The translations under genes were made by a program, and so were the position numbers. This document shows positions 43,474-60,783 of a DNA stretch of 64,000 nt, one piece after another. A model generated the notes under the pieces. It was given only the letters and a program-made list of their open reading frames with translations, made no database searches and was not told the origin of the DNA. How positions within the stretch are numbered: the stretch's first letter is position 1; each line of letters starts with the position of its first letter. The stretch is taken from contig NZ_CP141059.1 of NCBI RefSeq assembly GCF_034661235.1, forward strand, positions 4,401,501-4,465,500, written 5' to 3'. The DNA is from Nocardioides bizhenqiangii. GTDB taxonomy: Bacteria; Actinomycetota; Actinomycetes; Propionibacteriales; Nocardioidaceae.

Positions 43474-43866
43474 TCAGTCCTCCGGGACCGTGATGGTGGG
43501 GCTGAAGTCCGCGTTGCACAGCGCGGTCTTGGTGACCTTGGCGTAGAACTTGCCGGCCAGACCGGTGTTGCCGGTGCTCCAGACGCCGACGCCACTCTGG
43601 ACCTCGGAGGTGTCCGAGGCGACGCGGACGTCGTCCCCGCCACCGCGGGTACCGCGCTGCTTGAACAGCACGACCTTGCGGTTGCCCTCGCACGAGGGGC
43701 GCGAGCTGGAGACGGTCCCGAAGAGGTCGGACCCGGCCCGGTCGATGGTCACCCTGGTGGCCGCCGGAGCGGCGGCCGAGGCGATGCCGCTGTCGATTCC
43801 CAGCGGCAGTGCGATCAGCGCGGCGACAGGAAAGGCAGCACGTGCGATGTTGCGGATGTTCGTCAT
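43474..43866 (-). CDS. Small secreted protein, paralogue of 21197-21610
   Basis: 130 aa from ATG 43866. Signal peptide MTNIRNIARAAFPVAALIALPLGIDSGIASA. The mature part has SCEGNRKVVLFKQ, GVGVW, and KFYAKVTKTALCNADFSPTI, parallel to the protein at 21197 (C-x-x-NRKV-x-L ... W ... FYA-V ... C). Function unknown. It is the nearest gene downstream of the methyltransferase, with 218 bp between; an open frame to 44379 would run into that gene and is rejected. Confidence 0.78.
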   Translation of the reverse strand: MTNIRNIARAAFPVAALIALPLGIDSGIASAAAPAATRVTIDRAGSDLFGTVSSSRPSCEGNRKVVLFKQRGTRGGGDDVRVASDTSEVQSGVGVWSTGNTGLAGKFYAKVTKTALCNADFSPTITVPED

Positions 43867-44084: not shown

Positions 44085-44936
44085 TCACGCCCGCTTCGCG
44101 GTGAGCACCAGGTACTCCCAGTGCATGGTCGGGCGGCCGTCGACCTCGGCCAGGTGGTCGCTCATCACCTCGCGCAGGGCAGCATCGAGCTTCGCGGTCC
44201 CGCCCGGAATCTGCTCCACGTGGCGGTAGGTCACGATCGTCGGGCCATAGCAGCGCTTGAAGTACTCGAGCACGGCGTCGGCGGTCGCGAAGTGCGTGAC
44301 CGGCAGGAACCGGCGCTCCCACGAGATGGACTCGACCCGGTCGCCGAGGAGACCCTCGACGTACGAGGGGTCGCCCCACATCGGCGGAGGCAGCGCACCG
44401 GCGGGCGCCGGCGGGGCGAACGGCTTCATCGCCCGGAACATCTGGCCGATGAAGCCCTCCGGGGTCCAGTTGAGGACGCCGAGGGTGCCGCCCGGGCGGG
44501 TGACGCGGACCATCTCGTCGGCGGCCTGCTGGTGCCGCGGTGCGAACATCACGCCCAGGGCGGAAAGGACGACGTCGAAGTCACCGTCGTCGTAGGGCAG
44601 GTCCTCGGCGTCGGCGTCGTGCCAGAAGATGTCCAGCCCTCGGCGCTTCGCCTCGCGGCGTCCCTCGGTGCACAGCTCCGGGGTCAGGTCGCAGGCGACC
44701 ACCTGGGCGCCGCGCAGCGCGGCAGGGATCGCGGCGTTGCCGGTGCCGGCGGCGACGTCGAGCACGGACTGGCCGGCCTCGACGCCGCACTGCGCGACGA
44801 GGGCCTCGCCGATCGGCGTGATCAGGTCGCGGACCACGGCGGGGTAGTCGCCGGCGGCCCACATCGCGCGGTGCCGCTGCTTGACCTGTCCCCAGTCGGT
44901 GGTGTTGACGAGCGTGCTGCTCGGTCGGTCGGTCAT
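44085..44936 (-). CDS. Class I SAM-dependent methyltransferase
   Basis: 283 aa. SAM-binding motif I is VLDVAAGTGNAAIPAA near 58, followed by CDLTPE and a motif II DFDVVLSALGVMFAP. The C-terminal part is typical of small-molecule methyltransferases. The acceptor is unknown. An 18-bp SARP-type site lies 54 bp upstream of the ATG, identical to the one ahead of the secreted-protein operon, so the neighbouring SARP regulator is a likely activator. Confidence 0.88.
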   Translation of the reverse strand: MTDRPSSTLVNTTDWGQVKQRHRAMWAAGDYPAVVRDLITPIGEALVAQCGVEAGQSVLDVAAGTGNAAIPAALRGAQVVACDLTPELCTEGRREAKRRGLDIFWHDADAEDLPYDDGDFDVVLSALGVMFAPRHQQAADEMVRVTRPGGTLGVLNWTPEGFIGQMFRAMKPFAPPAPAGALPPPMWGDPSYVEGLLGDRVESISWERRFLPVTHFATADAVLEYFKRCYGPTIVTYRHVEQIPGGTAKLDAALREVMSDHLAEVDGRPTMHWEYLVLTAKRA

Positions 44937-44990
44937 CGGTTCTCCTCAGAAGGTTCGTGGTGAGTTCTGAGGAAGAGACTCGACGGCGCT

Positions 44991-45008
44991 CGTTGAGTTC
45001 GCGTTGAG
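44991..45008 (-). promoter_or_regulatory. SARP-type heptamer direct repeat upstream of the methyltransferase
   Basis: On the minus strand it reads CTCAACG-CGAA-CTCAACG: two identical heptamers with an 11-bp period. The copy at 50066 is the same at all 18 bases. Its gene-proximal edge is 54 bp from the ATG at 44936. Confidence 0.75.
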
Positions 45009-45027
45009 GGCCTGTGGAGACCTCCGG

Positions 45028-48000
45028 TTACCGCCGTTCCGCGGGTGCTGGGTCCCGGACCCGGGCGGCGGTCGCGTGCGCACCAAGCTCCTCGAGGAGC
45101 CGTACGGCGCGCTCGCGGTGGCGTGGCTCCGTGGAGTCGGCCAGCACCATGGCTTCGGTGAAGGGCTCGCGGTTCTCCGCCCACCAGCCGGCGGCCTCGT
45201 CGATCCGACCTTCCGCGGCCGTGGCGTAAGGCGAGGCCAAAGCCCCGTGCTCTGCCGGGATCCCGAGACGGCGTAGCCAGGCAGCCAGCTCGCCAGTCGC
45301 CCACTCCGTGCCGGGCGTGCCGGCGACCGCAGCAAGCTCTGCGGGTGCGTCGCGGACGACCCGCTGGTCGACGGTTCCCGTGGTCCACATGATCTCGGCC
45401 AGGCCCGAGTAGAACGACAGCCGCCGGATGGGCTCGTCGATCGACCGCATCAACAGCCAGGCTGCATCCAGCGCGGACGGGTCCGGGGTGCCGTGACGTC
45501 TGAGGGACGTCAGCGCGAGCAGCAGGTTCGGCCACAGCTTCGCCACGGCCATGCCCTCGCGACCGAGCGCCTCCCGGACGTCGGCCAGCGCCGCCTCCCA
45601 GTCTCCGCGGGCGTGTCTGACCCGCGCGCGCACGCTCGTCTGCCAGTGGTTGCAGATCGGGATGTCGCGCTCCTCCGCGAACGGCATCGACACCTCGAGC
45701 ACGGCCGCGGCCTTGTCGAACCGCCGGTTCTCGACGTCGATGCTGACGATCTGGGAGTACCCCGTCGACGCCAGCTCGTCCCAGTGCTCTGTCCGTGCGT
45801 CCCGGATCAGCTGCTCGAGGTCACCGCGCGCGGTTTCGTCACCCGTCGCGAGCGACGCCAGCAGCTCGACCATGCGGGCCCGGGTGCGGAGGAACTCCCC
45901 GCCCGTCCGGTCGGCGATCTCCGCCGCCTCCGACGCGCAGGCCGTCGCCAGGTCCAGCTCGCTGCGCAGGTATGCCAGGAACCCACGGGTGGCGCGCGCG
46001 GAGCTCTCGACAACAACCGCTCCGGTGCCCTCGGCGAGCCCGGCCGCCCGGTCGACGAGCTCCTCCGCCTCCGTGCGGTGGGCGGCGTAGTACTCGTACA
46101 TGCCCGTCCGCTCGTGGGCCGCCGCCACGCCGGCGTCGTCGCCGACCTCGCGCCACAGCGGGATGGTGGCGCGCACGGTGTCGATGGCGTCGCCGAGCCG
46201 GTCGGTGAGGTACTGCTCGAAGCTCAGCCGCTGCAGAAGCGCGGCCCGCTCCGCCACGTCGTCGTCGGCAACGTGGTCCAGCGCGACCTGGAAGAACGCC
46301 ACGGCTTCACCGTGAGCGCCCTTGCGGCACGCCTCCTCTGCGGCGGCGCACGCGTAGCGTCGGGCCCGTTCGGAGTCCCGTGCCGCCACCGCATGGTGGG
46401 TCAGCACCGCCGGCTCCTGGACCCCGGCCCGCTCCAGCCCTTCGACCACGCGCAGGTGCAAGCCCGGTCCCGCGCCGGCAGGGATGGTGCTCTCGATCGC
46501 CTGCCGCGCGAGCTCGTGACGGTAGGCGAGACCACCCCGCGCGTGCGTCAACAGTCCGGTGTCCTCCAACCGGGTGAGCGCGGACAGGTCGAGTTCGAGG
46601 GCCGGCAGCACCCGGTCGTCGAGGCGGTCGGGCGAGGTCGCCAGCAGCTGCAGCACCTCGAAGTCCTCCGCGGTCACGTCGGCCGTGCGCGCCAGCACCG
46701 CATCGCGGACCGTGCGCGGCAGCGGCCGGTCGGGGTCCTTGGCGATCTCCGTGACGAAGAACTGGTTTCCACCTGTCAGCGCGTGCACCTGTTGCGCGTC
46801 GAGCGACGTACCGTCCACCAGACGGCGGACGCCGTCCACCGAGAGCGGTGCGAGTCCGATGCTGCTCAACCGCTCGTGGCTCGCCATGTCGCCGAGGAGC
46901 TGGCGGGCCGGGTGCCGGGGGCCGATCTCGTGTTCGCGGTAGGTCACCAGCAGAGCAAGGGGCAGGGATCGGATCCGGCGGGCGACGAACCGGAGCACCT
47001 GGGCGGTCGCCGCGTCGACCCAGTGCAGGTCCTCGACCACGAGCACGGTCGGCTCGGTCGAGAGGGCGGCGAGCACGTCCTCGCACACCTGGGGCAGCAA
47101 CACGTCATCCTCGCTGACGACCGCTGAGAATCCGGCGTCCACGGCGAGGTCGCGCAGCGGACCTAGCGGGCGCGGGGTGCTCAACGGGTCACATCCGCTG
47201 CGCAGCAGGCGGAGCCGCGGACCGTCCGCACACGCCACCTGGACCAGGGTCGACTTGCCGGTGCCGGCGTCGCCGGCCACCGCAATACCCGAGCCCTCGC
47301 CGCGTGCCGCGGCCGCGATCGCCTCGGTCAACAGTGCCCGTTCGTGCTCACGCTCCATCAGCTCCATGTGACCTTGGGCCAACGACCTCGCGGCGTGGGC
47401 CTCCGCACTCGTGCTCGCCCCGGAGACGCTCGCCCCGGTCCAGCGCTCGGCCGGTCTCGGCTCGGTGGCGTCGAGCTCGGGGCTCTGGCGCAGCATCGAG
47501 GTCTCGAGGTCGCGCAGCTCCGGACCTGGGTCCAGCCCCAGCTCCTCGGCCAGGCGGAGCCTCGTCGCAGCCGAGACGGCCAGCGCGTCGGCCTGGCGTC
47601 CCGACCGGTAGAGCGCCAGCATCAGTTGCGCGGAGAACCGCTCCCGGAACGGGTGCTCGTCCACCAGCGCCTGCAATCGGGTCACCACCGCCCGGTGGCG
47701 GCCCAGCGCGAGCTGGGCATCCAGCCAGCCCTCCCATGCCACCAGGCGCAGCTCGTTGAGGTGGGCGACGGCCGAGGACGCGAAGTCCGGTGGTCCGAGG
47801 TCGACCAGGACCTCACCCCGCCACAGGTCGAGCGCCATACCGAGGACCTCGTCGGCCACGGCCGGGCCGTCCGCAGCGGCGCGCTGCTGGCCCTCGCGCA
47901 GCAGCCGCTCGAAGGAGCCCGCGTCGATCGCCGCCGGGTCGGTGTCGAAGCAATAGCCACCGCTGCGGCTGTCCAACGTCGCCGGCGCGGCGGCCCGGTC

Positions 48001-48228
48001 GAGGATCTTGCGCACCTGTCCGACGTACGTCCGCAGCGTGGTCGCCGCGCCCGCGGTAGCCGCCTCGCCCCACAGGTGGTCGACCAGCCGGTCGACGGTG
48101 ACGATCTGCCCCCGGTGGAGCAGCAGCGCAGCCAGCAGCTCTCGCGGCTTCTGGCCCCCGAGCGACACCGGGGTGCCGTCAGCGTCCCGCACCTCCAGCG
48201 GGCCGAGAACACCGAAGGCCGGCTCCAT
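45028..48228 (-). CDS. Large SARP regulator: OmpR-like HTH, BTAD, AAA ATPase and TPR domains
   Basis: 1066 aa. Residues 1-95 form the OmpR/SARP winged helix (LGPLEVRDADGTPVSLGGQKPRELLAALLLH), about 100-245 the BTAD (AAADGPAVADEVL...RLRLAEELGLDPGPELRDLE), about 300-560 an AAA/LuxR-type ATPase (Walker A AGDAGTGKST near 318, Walker B LVVEDLHWVDA), and the remainder TPR-like helices. Such SARPs activate antibiotic and surface-product genes; here two identical heptamer sites lie before the methyltransferase and the secreted-protein operon. No PKS or NRPS gene is close. The gap to the downstream gene is 91 bp. Confidence 0.93.
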   Translation of the reverse strand: MEPAFGVLGPLEVRDADGTPVSLGGQKPRELLAALLLHRGQIVTVDRLVDHLWGEAATAGAATTLRTYVGQVRKILDRAAAPATLDSRSGGYCFDTDPAAIDAGSFERLLREGQQRAAADGPAVADEVLGMALDLWRGEVLVDLGPPDFASSAVAHLNELRLVAWEGWLDAQLALGRHRAVVTRLQALVDEHPFRERFSAQLMLALYRSGRQADALAVSAATRLRLAEELGLDPGPELRDLETSMLRQSPELDATEPRPAERWTGASVSGASTSAEAHAARSLAQGHMELMEREHERALLTEAIAAAARGEGSGIAVAGDAGTGKSTLVQVACADGPRLRLLRSGCDPLSTPRPLGPLRDLAVDAGFSAVVSEDDVLLPQVCEDVLAALSTEPTVLVVEDLHWVDAATAQVLRFVARRIRSLPLALLVTYREHEIGPRHPARQLLGDMASHERLSSIGLAPLSVDGVRRLVDGTSLDAQQVHALTGGNQFFVTEIAKDPDRPLPRTVRDAVLARTADVTAEDFEVLQLLATSPDRLDDRVLPALELDLSALTRLEDTGLLTHARGGLAYRHELARQAIESTIPAGAGPGLHLRVVEGLERAGVQEPAVLTHHAVAARDSERARRYACAAAEEACRKGAHGEAVAFFQVALDHVADDDVAERAALLQRLSFEQYLTDRLGDAIDTVRATIPLWREVGDDAGVAAAHERTGMYEYYAAHRTEAEELVDRAAGLAEGTGAVVVESSARATRGFLAYLRSELDLATACASEAAEIADRTGGEFLRTRARMVELLASLATGDETARGDLEQLIRDARTEHWDELASTGYSQIVSIDVENRRFDKAAAVLEVSMPFAEERDIPICNHWQTSVRARVRHARGDWEAALADVREALGREGMAVAKLWPNLLLALTSLRRHGTPDPSALDAAWLLMRSIDEPIRRLSFYSGLAEIMWTTGTVDQRVVRDAPAELAAVAGTPGTEWATGELAAWLRRLGIPAEHGALASPYATAAEGRIDEAAGWWAENREPFTEAMVLADSTEPRHRERAVRLLEELGAHATAARVRDPAPAERR

Positions 48229-48347
48229 GCCGCTCAGCGTAGGACGTCATACGGGGCGTTCGCGCTCGATTTCTCGATCGCCGGTGCCAGGCCGACGCGG
48301 CCAGCAGAGGCGGGAGTGGCGGCCGAGGAGGCTCGCGGCAAGCGGAC

Positions 48348-48378
48348 CCAGGACGAAACGGTCACCGTCTCGTCCTGG
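48348..48378 (-). terminator. Hairpin at the end of the secreted-protein operon
   Basis: CCAGGACGA (48348-48356) pairs with TCGTCCTGG (48370-48378), and inner ACGGT with ACCGT, forming a stem of about 14 bp with one mismatch. It lies 11 bp after the stop at 48389, between the operon and the SARP gene. No T-run follows. Confidence 0.6.
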
Positions 48379-48388
48379 TCCACTCGCG

Positions 48389-48883
48389 CTAGGCCTGCAC
48401 GCACATCGCCCACCCGAACACCAGCGCCTCGGCGCCGCCTTCGTTGACGACGCTCACCAGCCAGTGCGCGCCGTCGACGGTCGACCGCTCGATGGAGACG
48501 AGGTCGGGCCGGGTGGACGACACGCCACCGCTGACCGCGGTCTCGTGCAGGTCGCAGGAGATCGTCCAGCTGAGCCGATCCCCGGCGCCCAGCGTCCGTG
48601 GCTCCGATCGCTGGACCAGGCCGGGCACGCCGTTCGCCCCGGGGAGTCCCGGTGGCCCGGCCTCGCCCTTCGGACCGACCGGCAGGTTCTCGACGTCGGG
48701 CAGGCTCAGCGAGCCGTCGCGGACGTCGCCCCCCGTGAGGCTGCCGTTGCGGACGTCGGCACCGCGCACCGAGCCGTCCTTGATCTGTGCGCCGGTCACG
48801 AGCGCGCCGGCCGTGGCGCTGCCGGCGGTGACGCCGACCAGCACGATGGCAGCGGCCGCGACAGTGCGGATCCGTGTCCTCAT
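48389..48883 (-). CDS. Secreted protein 3 of the SARP-linked operon
   Basis: 164 aa from ATG 48883, which overlaps the previous stop (TGATG). Signal peptide MRTRIRTVAAAAIVLVGVTAGSATA, then repeats VTGAQIKDGSVRGADVRNGS and LTGGDVRDGSL, then a short collagen-like GPKGEAGPPGLPGANGVPG and a beta domain with a Cys pair (ISCDL, AMCVQA at the end). It resembles the two proteins upstream in layout. A surface-exposed or released adhesive-type protein; function unknown. Confidence 0.82.
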   Translation of the reverse strand: MRTRIRTVAAAAIVLVGVTAGSATAGALVTGAQIKDGSVRGADVRNGSLTGGDVRDGSLSLPDVENLPVGPKGEAGPPGLPGANGVPGLVQRSEPRTLGAGDRLSWTISCDLHETAVSGGVSSTRPDLVSIERSTVDGAHWLVSVVNEGGAEALVFGWAMCVQA

Positions 48884-49467
48884 CACCGCACCTCCGCACA
48901 GACCGCGTAGGCCACCATGGTGGCGTTGGGTCGCCCCGGGGGGTTGTAGGCCCGCACGACCCATCCGGGCCGGGACTCGGGCGCTGACCCCAGCGGGGAG
49001 GAGTCGAGCAGCTGCAGCTGGCCGGCGGCCGAGGCGTGCAGCCCGCCGCCGATCGCGACCCTGCCGTCGCCGCACGTCAAGAAGGCGTTGCTGATCGTGC
49101 CCGGGGACAGGAGCTGCGGCTCGGTGCTGACGGACCCGACGACCTCGAGCCCCGTCTGGCCGGTCCGGCCCTGCTCGCCGCGCGGACCCGCGGGTCCGGT
49201 CTGGTCACCGACGATGTCCGCCATGGTGATGGCGCTGTCGGCGACGTCGCGTCCGGTGACGGTCGCGTTGCGCACGTCCCGGTTCGTGACGGTGCCGTCC
49301 TTGATCTGCTGCCCGGTGATCAGTGCCGCCGCCTGCGCGCCGCCGGTGACCCCGAGCGCCGTACCGAGTGCGCCGACGACCAGCAGTGACGCCAGCCCTC
49401 TCCTCGCACCGGTCGTCCTCAGGTGGTTCCTCATGTCCTTGCTCATTTCCTTGGTCCTCGTGCTCAT
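48883..49467 (-). CDS. Secreted protein 2 of the SARP-linked operon
   Basis: 194 aa from ATG 49467 overlapping the previous stop as ATGA. Signal-like start with a core LASLLVVGALGTALGVTGGAQA, then ITGQQIKDGTVTNRDVRNATVTGRDV repeats, GPAGPRGEQGRTGQTG collagen-like stretch, and a beta domain with LTCGDGRVAIGGG and a final AYAVCAEVR Cys. Other in-frame Met codons lie 7 and 10 residues later. It shows the same domain order as its two neighbours. Confidence 0.82.
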   Translation of the reverse strand: MSTRTKEMSKDMRNHLRTTGARRGLASLLVVGALGTALGVTGGAQAAALITGQQIKDGTVTNRDVRNATVTGRDVADSAITMADIVGDQTGPAGPRGEQGRTGQTGLEVVGSVSTEPQLLSPGTISNAFLTCGDGRVAIGGGLHASAAGQLQLLDSSPLGSAPESRPGWVVRAYNPPGRPNATMVAYAVCAEVR

Positions 49468-50012
49468 GACGCGGTCACGCACAGTGCCCAGGCGTAGCCC
49501 GTCACGGTGCTGTTGGTCTTGTTGCGCATCCCGACCCACCAGCCGGTCCCGGCGTCGTCGACGGGGCCGGACTCGGTGAGCTGCACCACGCCGGGCGTGT
49601 CGGCGGAACCACCGCCCGACAGCACCCGGGTGCCATTGGGGCAGGGCGCGCCCCACGTGCGCGTGGTGTCCTTCGGGATGGCGAAGGGCTCGATGCTGTA
49701 AGTCAGCCCCGCCGTGCCCGGTGCTCCGGGCTGGCCGATGTCACCTGACGGTCCGGACATGCCGATGATGCGCGCGTCGAAGTCGCGCCGGGTGAGCGAG
49801 TCGTCCTTGACGTCCGCGCTCCGGAGGTCCGCGTCCCTGAGGTCGCGGCTCGTGATCGTCCCGTCCTTGATCTGCTTGCCGGTGACGACGACGCCCGCGG
49901 TCGCGCTGCCGGCGAACCCGAGCAGCAGCGTCGTCATCGCCACGAGCATGAGCGCCCGGCTGCTCGACGGGTGGCTACCGCGAGGGCCATCCTTCGCTTC
50001 TGGTACTGCCAT
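49464..50012 (-). CDS. Secreted protein 1 of the SARP-linked operon
   Basis: 182 aa from ATG 50012, the first gene of the operon. Membrane-targeting core ALMLVAMTTLLLGFAGSATA after an unusually long polar N-terminus. Then VTGKQIKDGTITSRDLRDADL and SADVKDDSLTRRDF repeats, GPSGDIGQPGAPGTAG collagen-like part, and a Cys-flanked beta domain (APCPNGTRVLSGGG ... ALCVTAS). The SARP-type site at 50066 is 54 bp upstream. Confidence 0.83.
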   Translation of the reverse strand: MAVPEAKDGPRGSHPSSSRALMLVAMTTLLLGFAGSATAGVVVTGKQIKDGTITSRDLRDADLRSADVKDDSLTRRDFDARIIGMSGPSGDIGQPGAPGTAGLTYSIEPFAIPKDTTRTWGAPCPNGTRVLSGGGSADTPGVVQLTESGPVDDAGTGWWVGMRNKTNSTVTGYAWALCVTAS

Positions 50013-50065
50013 GGTGGTTCTCCTTGGTCTCTGACTGGTTTGTCGAGACCACGGTTTCCACCGGG

Positions 50066-50083
50066 CGTTGAGTTCGCGTTGAG
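50066..50083 (-). promoter_or_regulatory. SARP-type heptamer direct repeat upstream of the secreted-protein operon
   Basis: Minus-strand CTCAACG-CGAA-CTCAACG, identical over 18 bp to 44991-45008, 53 bp from the ATG at 50012. Both are preceded on the minus strand by a similar TCCACA-type stretch, which extends the likeness beyond the heptamers. Confidence 0.75.
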
Positions 50084-50101
50084 ACCGTGTGGACGCTCGC
50101 G

Positions 50102-57054: not shown

Positions 57055-58196
<1,142 letters not shown>

Positions 58197-58200
<4 letters not shown>

Positions 58201-59414
58201 GAACGACGCCCGCCCGTCCAGGACCAGGCGTACTCGCCGTCGTCGCTGGCGCGACCGGCCTCGCCGATCTCCAGCGGCCGGAAGGTGTCGACCATGACCG
58301 CGAGCTCGTCGAACCGCTCCGCGCCGAGACTGGCCTCGATCGCACCCGGCTGCGGACCGTGGGCGTGCCCGCCGGGGTGCAGCGTGATCGACCCGATCCC
58401 GATGCCCGAGCCCTTGCGCGCCTCGTAGTCGCCGGCCACGTAGAACATCACCTCGTCGCTGTCGACGTTGGAGTGGTAGTAGGGCACCGGTACCGCCAGC
58501 GGGTGGTAGTCGACCTTGCGCGGCACGAAGTTGCAGACCACGAAGTTGTGGCCCTCGAAGACCTGGTGGACCGGCGGCGGCTGGTGCACCCGCCCGGTGA
58601 TCGGCTCGAAGTCGTCGACGTTGAAGGCGTAGGGATAGAGGCAGCCGTCCCAGCCGACGACGTCGAACGGGTGGTTCGGCACGACGTGCACCGACCCGGC
58701 CAGTCCGCCCGGTCCGACGCCGCGGTGCTTGATGTAGACCTCGACGTCCGTGTCGCCGCCGTGCGTCTCGACCAGCTCGAACATCGATGCAGGCGGGCGC
58801 AGGTCGCGCTCGCAGTACGGCGCGTGCTCGAGGAGCTGCCCGAAGCGGGACAGGTAGCGCTTCGGCGGGGTGATGTGGCTGTTGGCCTCGATCGCGTACA
58901 GCCGGAGCGGTTCCTCACCTGACGTGACCCAGCGGTGGGTGGTCGCCCGGGGGATGACGATGTAGTCGCCGGGACCGGCCTCGAGCAGGCCGAAGACGGT
59001 CTCCACGGTCGCCGTACCGCTCTCGACGAAGACCACCTCGTCGCCGACCGCGTTGCGGTAGAGCGGGGAGGTGGTGCCGACGACCGCGTAGCTGATCCGC
59101 ACGTCGGCGTTGCCGAGCACGAGCCGGCGGCCCGTGACCGCGTCGACCCCCTTCCACCCGTCGCCCGGGAACAGGCCGTGCAGGCTGAGGTGCCGCGGCA
59201 TCAGCGGCGCGTTGGTCTCGGTCGACTGGTCCGGCAGGTCCCACGTCCGGGCGTCGACCATCGCCGACGGGACGTTGCAGTGGTAGAGCAGCGAGGAGTC
59301 GGACGAGAACCCCTCCTCGCCCATCAGCTCCTCGTAGTAGAGGCTGCCGTCCGGGTCACGGTGCTGGGTGTGCCGCTTCGGCGGTACGTCGCCGACCCGC
59401 TGGTAGTGCGCCAT
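58197..59414 (-). CDS. hmgA: Homogentisate 1,2-dioxygenase
   Basis: Opens homogentisate to maleylacetoacetate with Fe(II). 405 aa. Iron ligands are His314, Glu321 (YYHSNVDSDEVMFYV) and His350 in LHPGGHAHG. The N-terminal cupin part includes GTTSPLYRNAVGDEVVFVESG. It follows HPPD in the same direction after a 58-bp gap holding one dispersed repeat, and overlaps fahA. A maleylacetoacetate isomerase gene is not seen in the window. Confidence 0.96.
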
Positions 59415-59429
59415 GTCTCTCCCGCTTTC

Positions 59430-59472
59430 GGTGGTCGAGTAGCCGAGCCGCTAGGCGAGGCGTATCGAGACC
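59430..59472 (+). repeat. Dispersed palindromic repeat between HPPD and HGD genes
   Basis: GGTGGTCGAGTAGCCGAGCC...GGCGTATCGAGACC, the same type as 742-786, immediately after the HPPD stop (59473-59475). It sits inside the tyrosine operon and may alter the transcript between these genes. Confidence 0.75.

Positions 59473-60783
<1,311 letters not shown>

Follow-up and report, generated by a model that had tools for sequence, protein, structure and literature searches.

We analysed a 64,000-nucleotide stretch of Nocardioides bizhenqiangii DNA (the window; genome positions 4,401,501-4,465,500), whose minus strand carries, in this order, the genes sp1-sp2-sp3, a SARP gene, MT and sp4. The genes sp1 (49464-50012), sp2 (48883-49446) and sp3 (48389-48883) encode secreted collagen-like paralogs; sp2 follows sp1 after 17 bp and overlaps sp3 by one base, so the triplet reads as a single operon with sp1 as its first gene. 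A strong hairpin (48300-48400, minus strand; -58.6 kcal/mol, z -4.84) stands after sp3 and before the SARP gene (45028-48228), as a possible terminator or attenuator. MT (44085-44936) encodes a class I SAM methyltransferase of 283 aa, and 218 bp after it lies sp4 (43474-43866), whose 130-aa product has a signal-peptide-like start. N. silvaticus, N. thalensis and the genome G137 likewise have sp4 close to MT, and it probably belongs to the MT unit; the initial annotation had named the methyltransferase as one of two targets, which comparison with relatives supports, and the unit is probably wider than described by the secreted sp4. No polyketide or peptide synthase was found among the 27 window proteins scanned against Pfam (from 61 gene calls), in agreement with the earlier statement that no antibiotic core enzyme is near. 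Genes for tyrosine/homogentisate breakdown occupy 57055-60546 of the window, 7-10 kb from the sp operon; in N. silvaticus such genes, assigned by eye, adjoin the sp operon directly (L042).

The regulator is a large protein of 1066 aa with an OmpR-type DNA-binding domain, a BTAD domain, an AAA_16 domain and a LAL-like C-terminal half. Its Pfam matches to Trans_reg_C (3e-11) and then BTAD (3.6e-40) give it the domain content of a SARP, and its DNA-binding part aligns to the AfsR structure with an E value of 1.4e-42. Assignment as an AfsR ortholog was rejected, the curated NCBIfam AfsR model scoring 188 bits on the full-length protein against a cut-off of 1430, and so was assignment as a LuxR-type LAL, no C-terminal GerE domain being found by Pfam. 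Judged by sequence and operator, the window regulator is thus classed as a SARP that is neither an AfsR ortholog nor a LuxR-type LAL. The sensor half, for its part, shares 44-55% identity with LuxR-type LALs from related genomes. In five LAL loci (L276, L277, L278, L279 and L280) the gene of a protein of about 94-98 aa with the start M-x-R-F-I-I-E-R-E-I, putatively DUF4242-like, was seen just upstream of the LAL gene, with one gene in between at L277; in G061 such a gene (L048:8522-8818) lies just upstream of a SARP.

The initial annotation had reported an identical 18-bp block 54 and 53 bp before two minus-strand start codons, with a SARP/AAA gene between them, and each of these points was reproduced. 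The block, CTCAACG-CGAA-CTCAACG with an 11-bp pitch, is exact on the minus strand at 44991-45008, ending 54 bp before the MT start codon (ATG 44936), and at 50066-50083, ending 53 bp before that of sp1 (ATG 50012). Both are predicted SARP operators. Beyond the earlier description, each site has a third, weaker heptamer 11 bp upstream (CTCCACA at 45013-45019 for MT, GTCCACA at 50088-50094 for sp1) and a -10-like hexamer 9 bp downstream of the 3′ heptamer (GAGTCT at 44976-44981 and AACCGT at 50051-50056, respectively), all on the minus strand.

Scanning the window with up to three mismatches returned those two sites alone, and 100 shuffled sequences gave a mean of 0.04 matches per window, none of them yielding two. 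Over the whole genome (4.55 Mb, a single contig) the 18-mer occurs twice exactly and three times with three mismatches, no copy with one or two mismatches being found, and the reversed pattern gave five matches at up to three mismatches; the abundant unrelated copies that would have spoken against the idea did not appear. When the 4-bp spacer was left free and up to two mismatches were allowed, 30 matches were obtained in the same genome (2 exact, 2 with one mismatch and 26 with two), the reversed pattern giving 22. The exact pair alone therefore stands out and, with counts at two mismatches near those of the control, no extra regulon member is claimed.

The spacing of heptamers and hexamer follows the published SARP pattern, in which, according to the part of PMC10936776 available, direct repeats are spaced by 11 or 22 bp and 8 bp separate the 3′ repeat from the -10; two or three heptamers separated by 4-bp spacers are the usual layout in excerpts of PMC10972967 and PMC5930380. 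For afsS, the same part of PMC10936776 gives a weak -10, CACTGT, a downstream repeat starting at -29, and AfsR contacts to the first 8 bp of each repeat. When the hexamer of our sites is set as -12 to -7, the 3′ heptamer is computed to occupy -28 to -22, matching the AfsR register, and the predicted element thus has the SARP feature of 11-bp direct repeats close 5′ of the -10. Of 15 sites in seven genomes, 14 have A at +11 and all 15 have T at +15 (nAnnnT, counted from the 3′ heptamer). The search pattern for the G161 and G226 sites itself contained the -10; among the 11 sites found without using it, A+11 and T+15 occur together in 10, and alternative offsets from 1 to 59 place nAnnnT at no more than two of those 11 sites each.

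A flavin monooxygenase gene (FAD) follows the operator in some relatives and offers an independent check of the register through its leaderless-looking start. All four FAD loci among the seven genomes have an in-frame start codon at +22, where transcription is expected to begin; it is ATG in three and GTG in N. thalensis. The open frame of N. caldifontis spans 634 codons against 633 from the +22 ATG, leaving hardly any room for an earlier start; in N. thalensis, G161 and G226 the frame stays open beyond that codon in the 5′ direction, which makes the +22 start a choice in these three. In G226, the FAD ATG is at +22 and the ATG of a small gene at +42. Elsewhere, the FAD start falls at +23 in a second locus of N. 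silvaticus (L186) and at +43 in a Tetrasphaera metagenome-assembled genome (MAG; L188).

The operator with its -10 was found at 13 further sites in six relatives. With the SARP as query, 149 genomes of the family yielded full-length SARP relatives in N. silvaticus (73% identity) and G078 (55%), and in N. thalensis, N. caldifontis (G050) and G061 relatives that correspond to the N-terminal part; the sites of G161, G226 and G078 came from later searches. N. silvaticus has one site before MT and a doubled triplet, six genes in all, each half of which is preceded by a site (L042:11821-15327), the operator 5′ of the second half having diverged to CTCCACG-TTCCACG. In N. thalensis, sites precede MT and FAD, both beside the SARP, and an operator also precedes the orthologous triplet, which lies 2.58 Mb from the SARP on a 4.57-Mb contig, or about 2.0 Mb if that contig is circular. 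N. caldifontis has a site before MT, with four heptamers in a row, and another before FAD; in G161 and G226 a site is followed by a small gene, MT and the SARP, after which a second site precedes FAD. The heptamers of G078 have drifted to CTGCACG/TTGCACG with pitch and -10 kept, and its site precedes MT, behind which lie three secreted paralogs in tandem that belong to a different family. Operators were also seen before short genes, of about 70-80 aa in G161 and G226 (L165:7433-7700; L166, near 11645) and of about 42 aa in G078 (L043:15940-16140). Arrays of CTCAACG/CTCATCG with an 11-bp pitch occur at L049:9781-9840 (contig 5 of G050) and L170:8374-8402 (G061), away from SARPs of this group, and are possibly operators of other regulators.

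Genome scans tied the operator to one kind of SARP. The exact heptamer pair gave eight matches in the 149 genomes against three for the reversed pattern; five of the eight lie at regulon genes, and for the pairs in G009, G065 and contig 5 of G050 neither a SARP nor a target gene was found in the stretch examined. A strict pattern, combining the heptamer pair (the first slightly looser) with the -10, matched 13 times in 215 genomes of the genus (reversed control, 0). Eleven of these matches fall in five of the seven genomes whose SARP domain is close to that of the window (E up to 1e-55); of the other 208 genomes, 2 have a strict match. Over 341 family genomes the same pattern gave 16 matches against one in the control, with 12 at regulon genes; no SARP or target gene was found in the stretches examined around the matches in G054, G279, G118 and G142. 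A scan with a relaxed operator, limited to the best 80 loci, added at least two Prauserella species and Amycolatopsis tucumanensis among named genomes, together with the Tetrasphaera MAG, two Nitriliruptoraceae MAGs and the second N. silvaticus locus.

A midpoint-rooted tree built from 88 SARP DNA-binding domains places the 14 rows that bear the operator, without exception, within one group of 21 (support 100/95, bootstrap not settled), and none of the 67 rows outside it bears an operator. Seven rows of the group lack one in the stretch examined: the contigs of L179 and L169 are short, L175 and L047 represent one locus, and the operator was sought and not found in G061 (L047, L048) and in the Mycobacteriaceae members L180 and L222. 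In three Solirubrobacter loci that fall outside the group, no operator was found 5′ of MT either. Relaxed operators number 19 in 289,170 bp of group loci, 0 in 849,704 bp of the 67 loci outside it and 1 in 805,687 bp of other loci, the last being L168, itself picked for such a match. The relaxed operator had been widened after inspection of loci of the same group and the sites are related by descent, so these counts show association and are not independent trials. We propose that this group of SARPs has its own operator, predicted as roughly YTCMACR heptamers at an 11-bp pitch, 9 bp and nAnnnT.

The genes next to these operators suggest that the group usually targets a flavin monooxygenase together with a methyltransferase, to which an exporter is added in some loci. 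FAD is present in 9 and a related MT in 10 of the 20 distinct group loci; the 67 loci outside the group have no FAD and three MT genes (Solirubrobacter). In both Prauserella loci the operator is followed by an MFS exporter, FAD and MT, and in the Amycolatopsis locus by an MFS exporter and FAD; Pfam identified the exporters of P. endophytica and A. tucumanensis. The window genome has no close flavin monooxygenase (best match, 39% over half the length), and its second operator stands before the collagen-like triplet. At E 1e-20, sp1-type proteins occur in 4 of the 215 genus genomes, namely the window genome, N. silvaticus, N. thalensis and G137. Distant PDB relatives of FAD and MT include rifampin monooxygenase (E 7e-13) and MitM (E 4e-11), matches too distant for a substrate to be assigned.

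MT alone was tried as a marker of the circuit and rejected: none of 40 MT loci examined, drawn from 60 further matches at E up to 1.2e-71 with the window, N. silvaticus and N. thalensis left out, carries this SARP domain. Members of one protein cluster (one of them HxlR by Pfam) are encoded at 22 of these 40 loci; among the 32 loci whose MT was caught by the gene calls, 19 have the cluster member immediately 5′ of MT. Genes of the MT family occur widely across the genus (L104-L143), and the regulators beside them vary, some being LuxR-type.

Comparison of whole regulators points to an exchange of parts. The SARPs of N. thalensis, N. caldifontis, G161 and G226 are 54-61% identical to the window protein in the DNA-binding part, their sensor halves aligning to it only partially at about 30%; the N. 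thalensis sensor half is about 49% identical to those of the other three. Conversely, a G137 regulator (L273:5279-10257) combines a sensor half like that of the window protein (44% over 775 aa) with a C-terminal LuxR domain and lies beside MT (39%), an sp1-like protein (31%) and sp4 (66%); the strict SARP operator was not found in the G137 genome. Sensor, DNA-binding part and targets are thus combined differently from locus to locus while the operator persists. Sensor halves and targets would have been swapped under a kept DNA-binding domain and operator (window versus N. thalensis), and the SARP domain swapped for LuxR under a kept sensor, MT and secreted proteins (window versus G137). That the parts exchange independently as a plug-in promoter module, and that collagen-like proteins thus took over the window circuit, is a reading we hold to be evenly balanced.

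The operator, its -10 register, the orthology of the genes behind it and its restriction to one SARP group are observed in the sequences, and from them we infer a circuit in which the large SARP very probably binds the direct heptamers and activates both the MT unit and the sp1-sp2-sp3 operon under the control of its ATPase half. That half would sense a signal and gate the activator, as NOD/TPR does in AfsR; SARP monomers would sit side by side on the heptamers, which would stand in for a -35 box, and guide RNA polymerase to the weak -10 that follows. The biological output would be the switching on of the MT unit, probably with sp4, and of the secreted-protein operon. In six genomes, G078 being the exception among the seven, the SARP gene lies 3′ of a promoter with an operator and on the same strand, so that positive feedback would be possible; in the window, the hairpin between sp3 and the SARP gene may limit it.

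The two sites could also be true SARP operators served in vivo by another SARP of the genome, the adjacent one acting elsewhere, and the genome does encode four further matches to the protein (35-41% identity among the matches listed). In that genome only the window SARP's own domain passes E 1e-55, and operators accompany the close domain in five of seven genomes versus 2 of 208 others, which makes this alternative improbable. Still less probable is that the SARP binds both sites as a repressor. Operator position by itself leaves the sign of control undefined, but SARPs in such a register are activators: according to the available part of PMC10936776, AfsR turns on afsS, whose promoter combines a weak -10 with repeats that overlap the -35. 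We give equally little credence to an origin of the repeats by chance, or through promoter DNA that was recently duplicated, with no control by a SARP: the window sites are letter-identical over 18 bp, yet their flanks differ, 0 of 100 shuffles yielded two sites, and relatives keep the layout despite changed heptamers and spacers. Activation of both units by the adjacent SARP thus remains the preferred reading. The circuit with two local operators put forward in the initial annotation gains support from the comparison, operator and -10 standing before orthologous genes in relatives and tracking one SARP group. Its description as unusual holds for part of it: most of the group appears to control FAD and MT, so the MT target is usual and the secreted triplet is the unusual part.

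SARPs are known chiefly as antibiotic-cluster switches in Streptomyces. Our searches for SARPs in Nocardioides, for SARPs with a collagen-like or secreted regulon and for Nocardioides collagen-like proteins, which covered few subscription papers, found nothing on this circuit. A recognisable operator and targets readable from sequence would make a SARP regulon outside a classical antibiotic cluster traceable across several actinobacterial families, and the two types of exchange (sensor swapped with targets kept, and DNA-binding domain swapped with sensor and targets kept) would make the rewiring of large regulators testable. Given the precedent of EmbR (PMC9239209, seen in part), the kind is already known and this variant appears new within the literature searched.

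Among known systems, EmbR of Mycobacterium tuberculosis is likewise a SARP-fold regulator outside antibiotic clusters according to the portion of PMC9239209 consulted, and its structure matches the window SARP at E 1e-39; it differs in having an FHA domain, in lacking the STAND/TPR half and in its targets. The G137 LuxR-type LAL shares the sensor half and the MT, sp1-like and sp4 neighbours, its DNA-binding domain being a C-terminal GerE/LuxR instead. PimR-type SARP-LALs place a SARP domain on a large ATPase half and, in the part of PMC5930380 available, PimR uses two or three heptamers with 4-bp spacers; the PimR operator there has a different heptamer and does not overlap the -35, and PimR acts in an antibiotic cluster. 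AfsR of Streptomyces coelicolor, at the afs box of afsS, is similar in its SARP and ATPase architecture, 11-bp direct repeats and weak -10. It differs in its targets and its heptamer, given in the source text available as CGTT(T/C)ATCG against CTCAACG in the window, and its similarity to the window SARP over a useful length is confined to the N-terminal part. In register, the 3′ heptamer computed here at -28 to -22 compares closely with the AfsR contacts at -29 to -22 (PMC10936776, available part).
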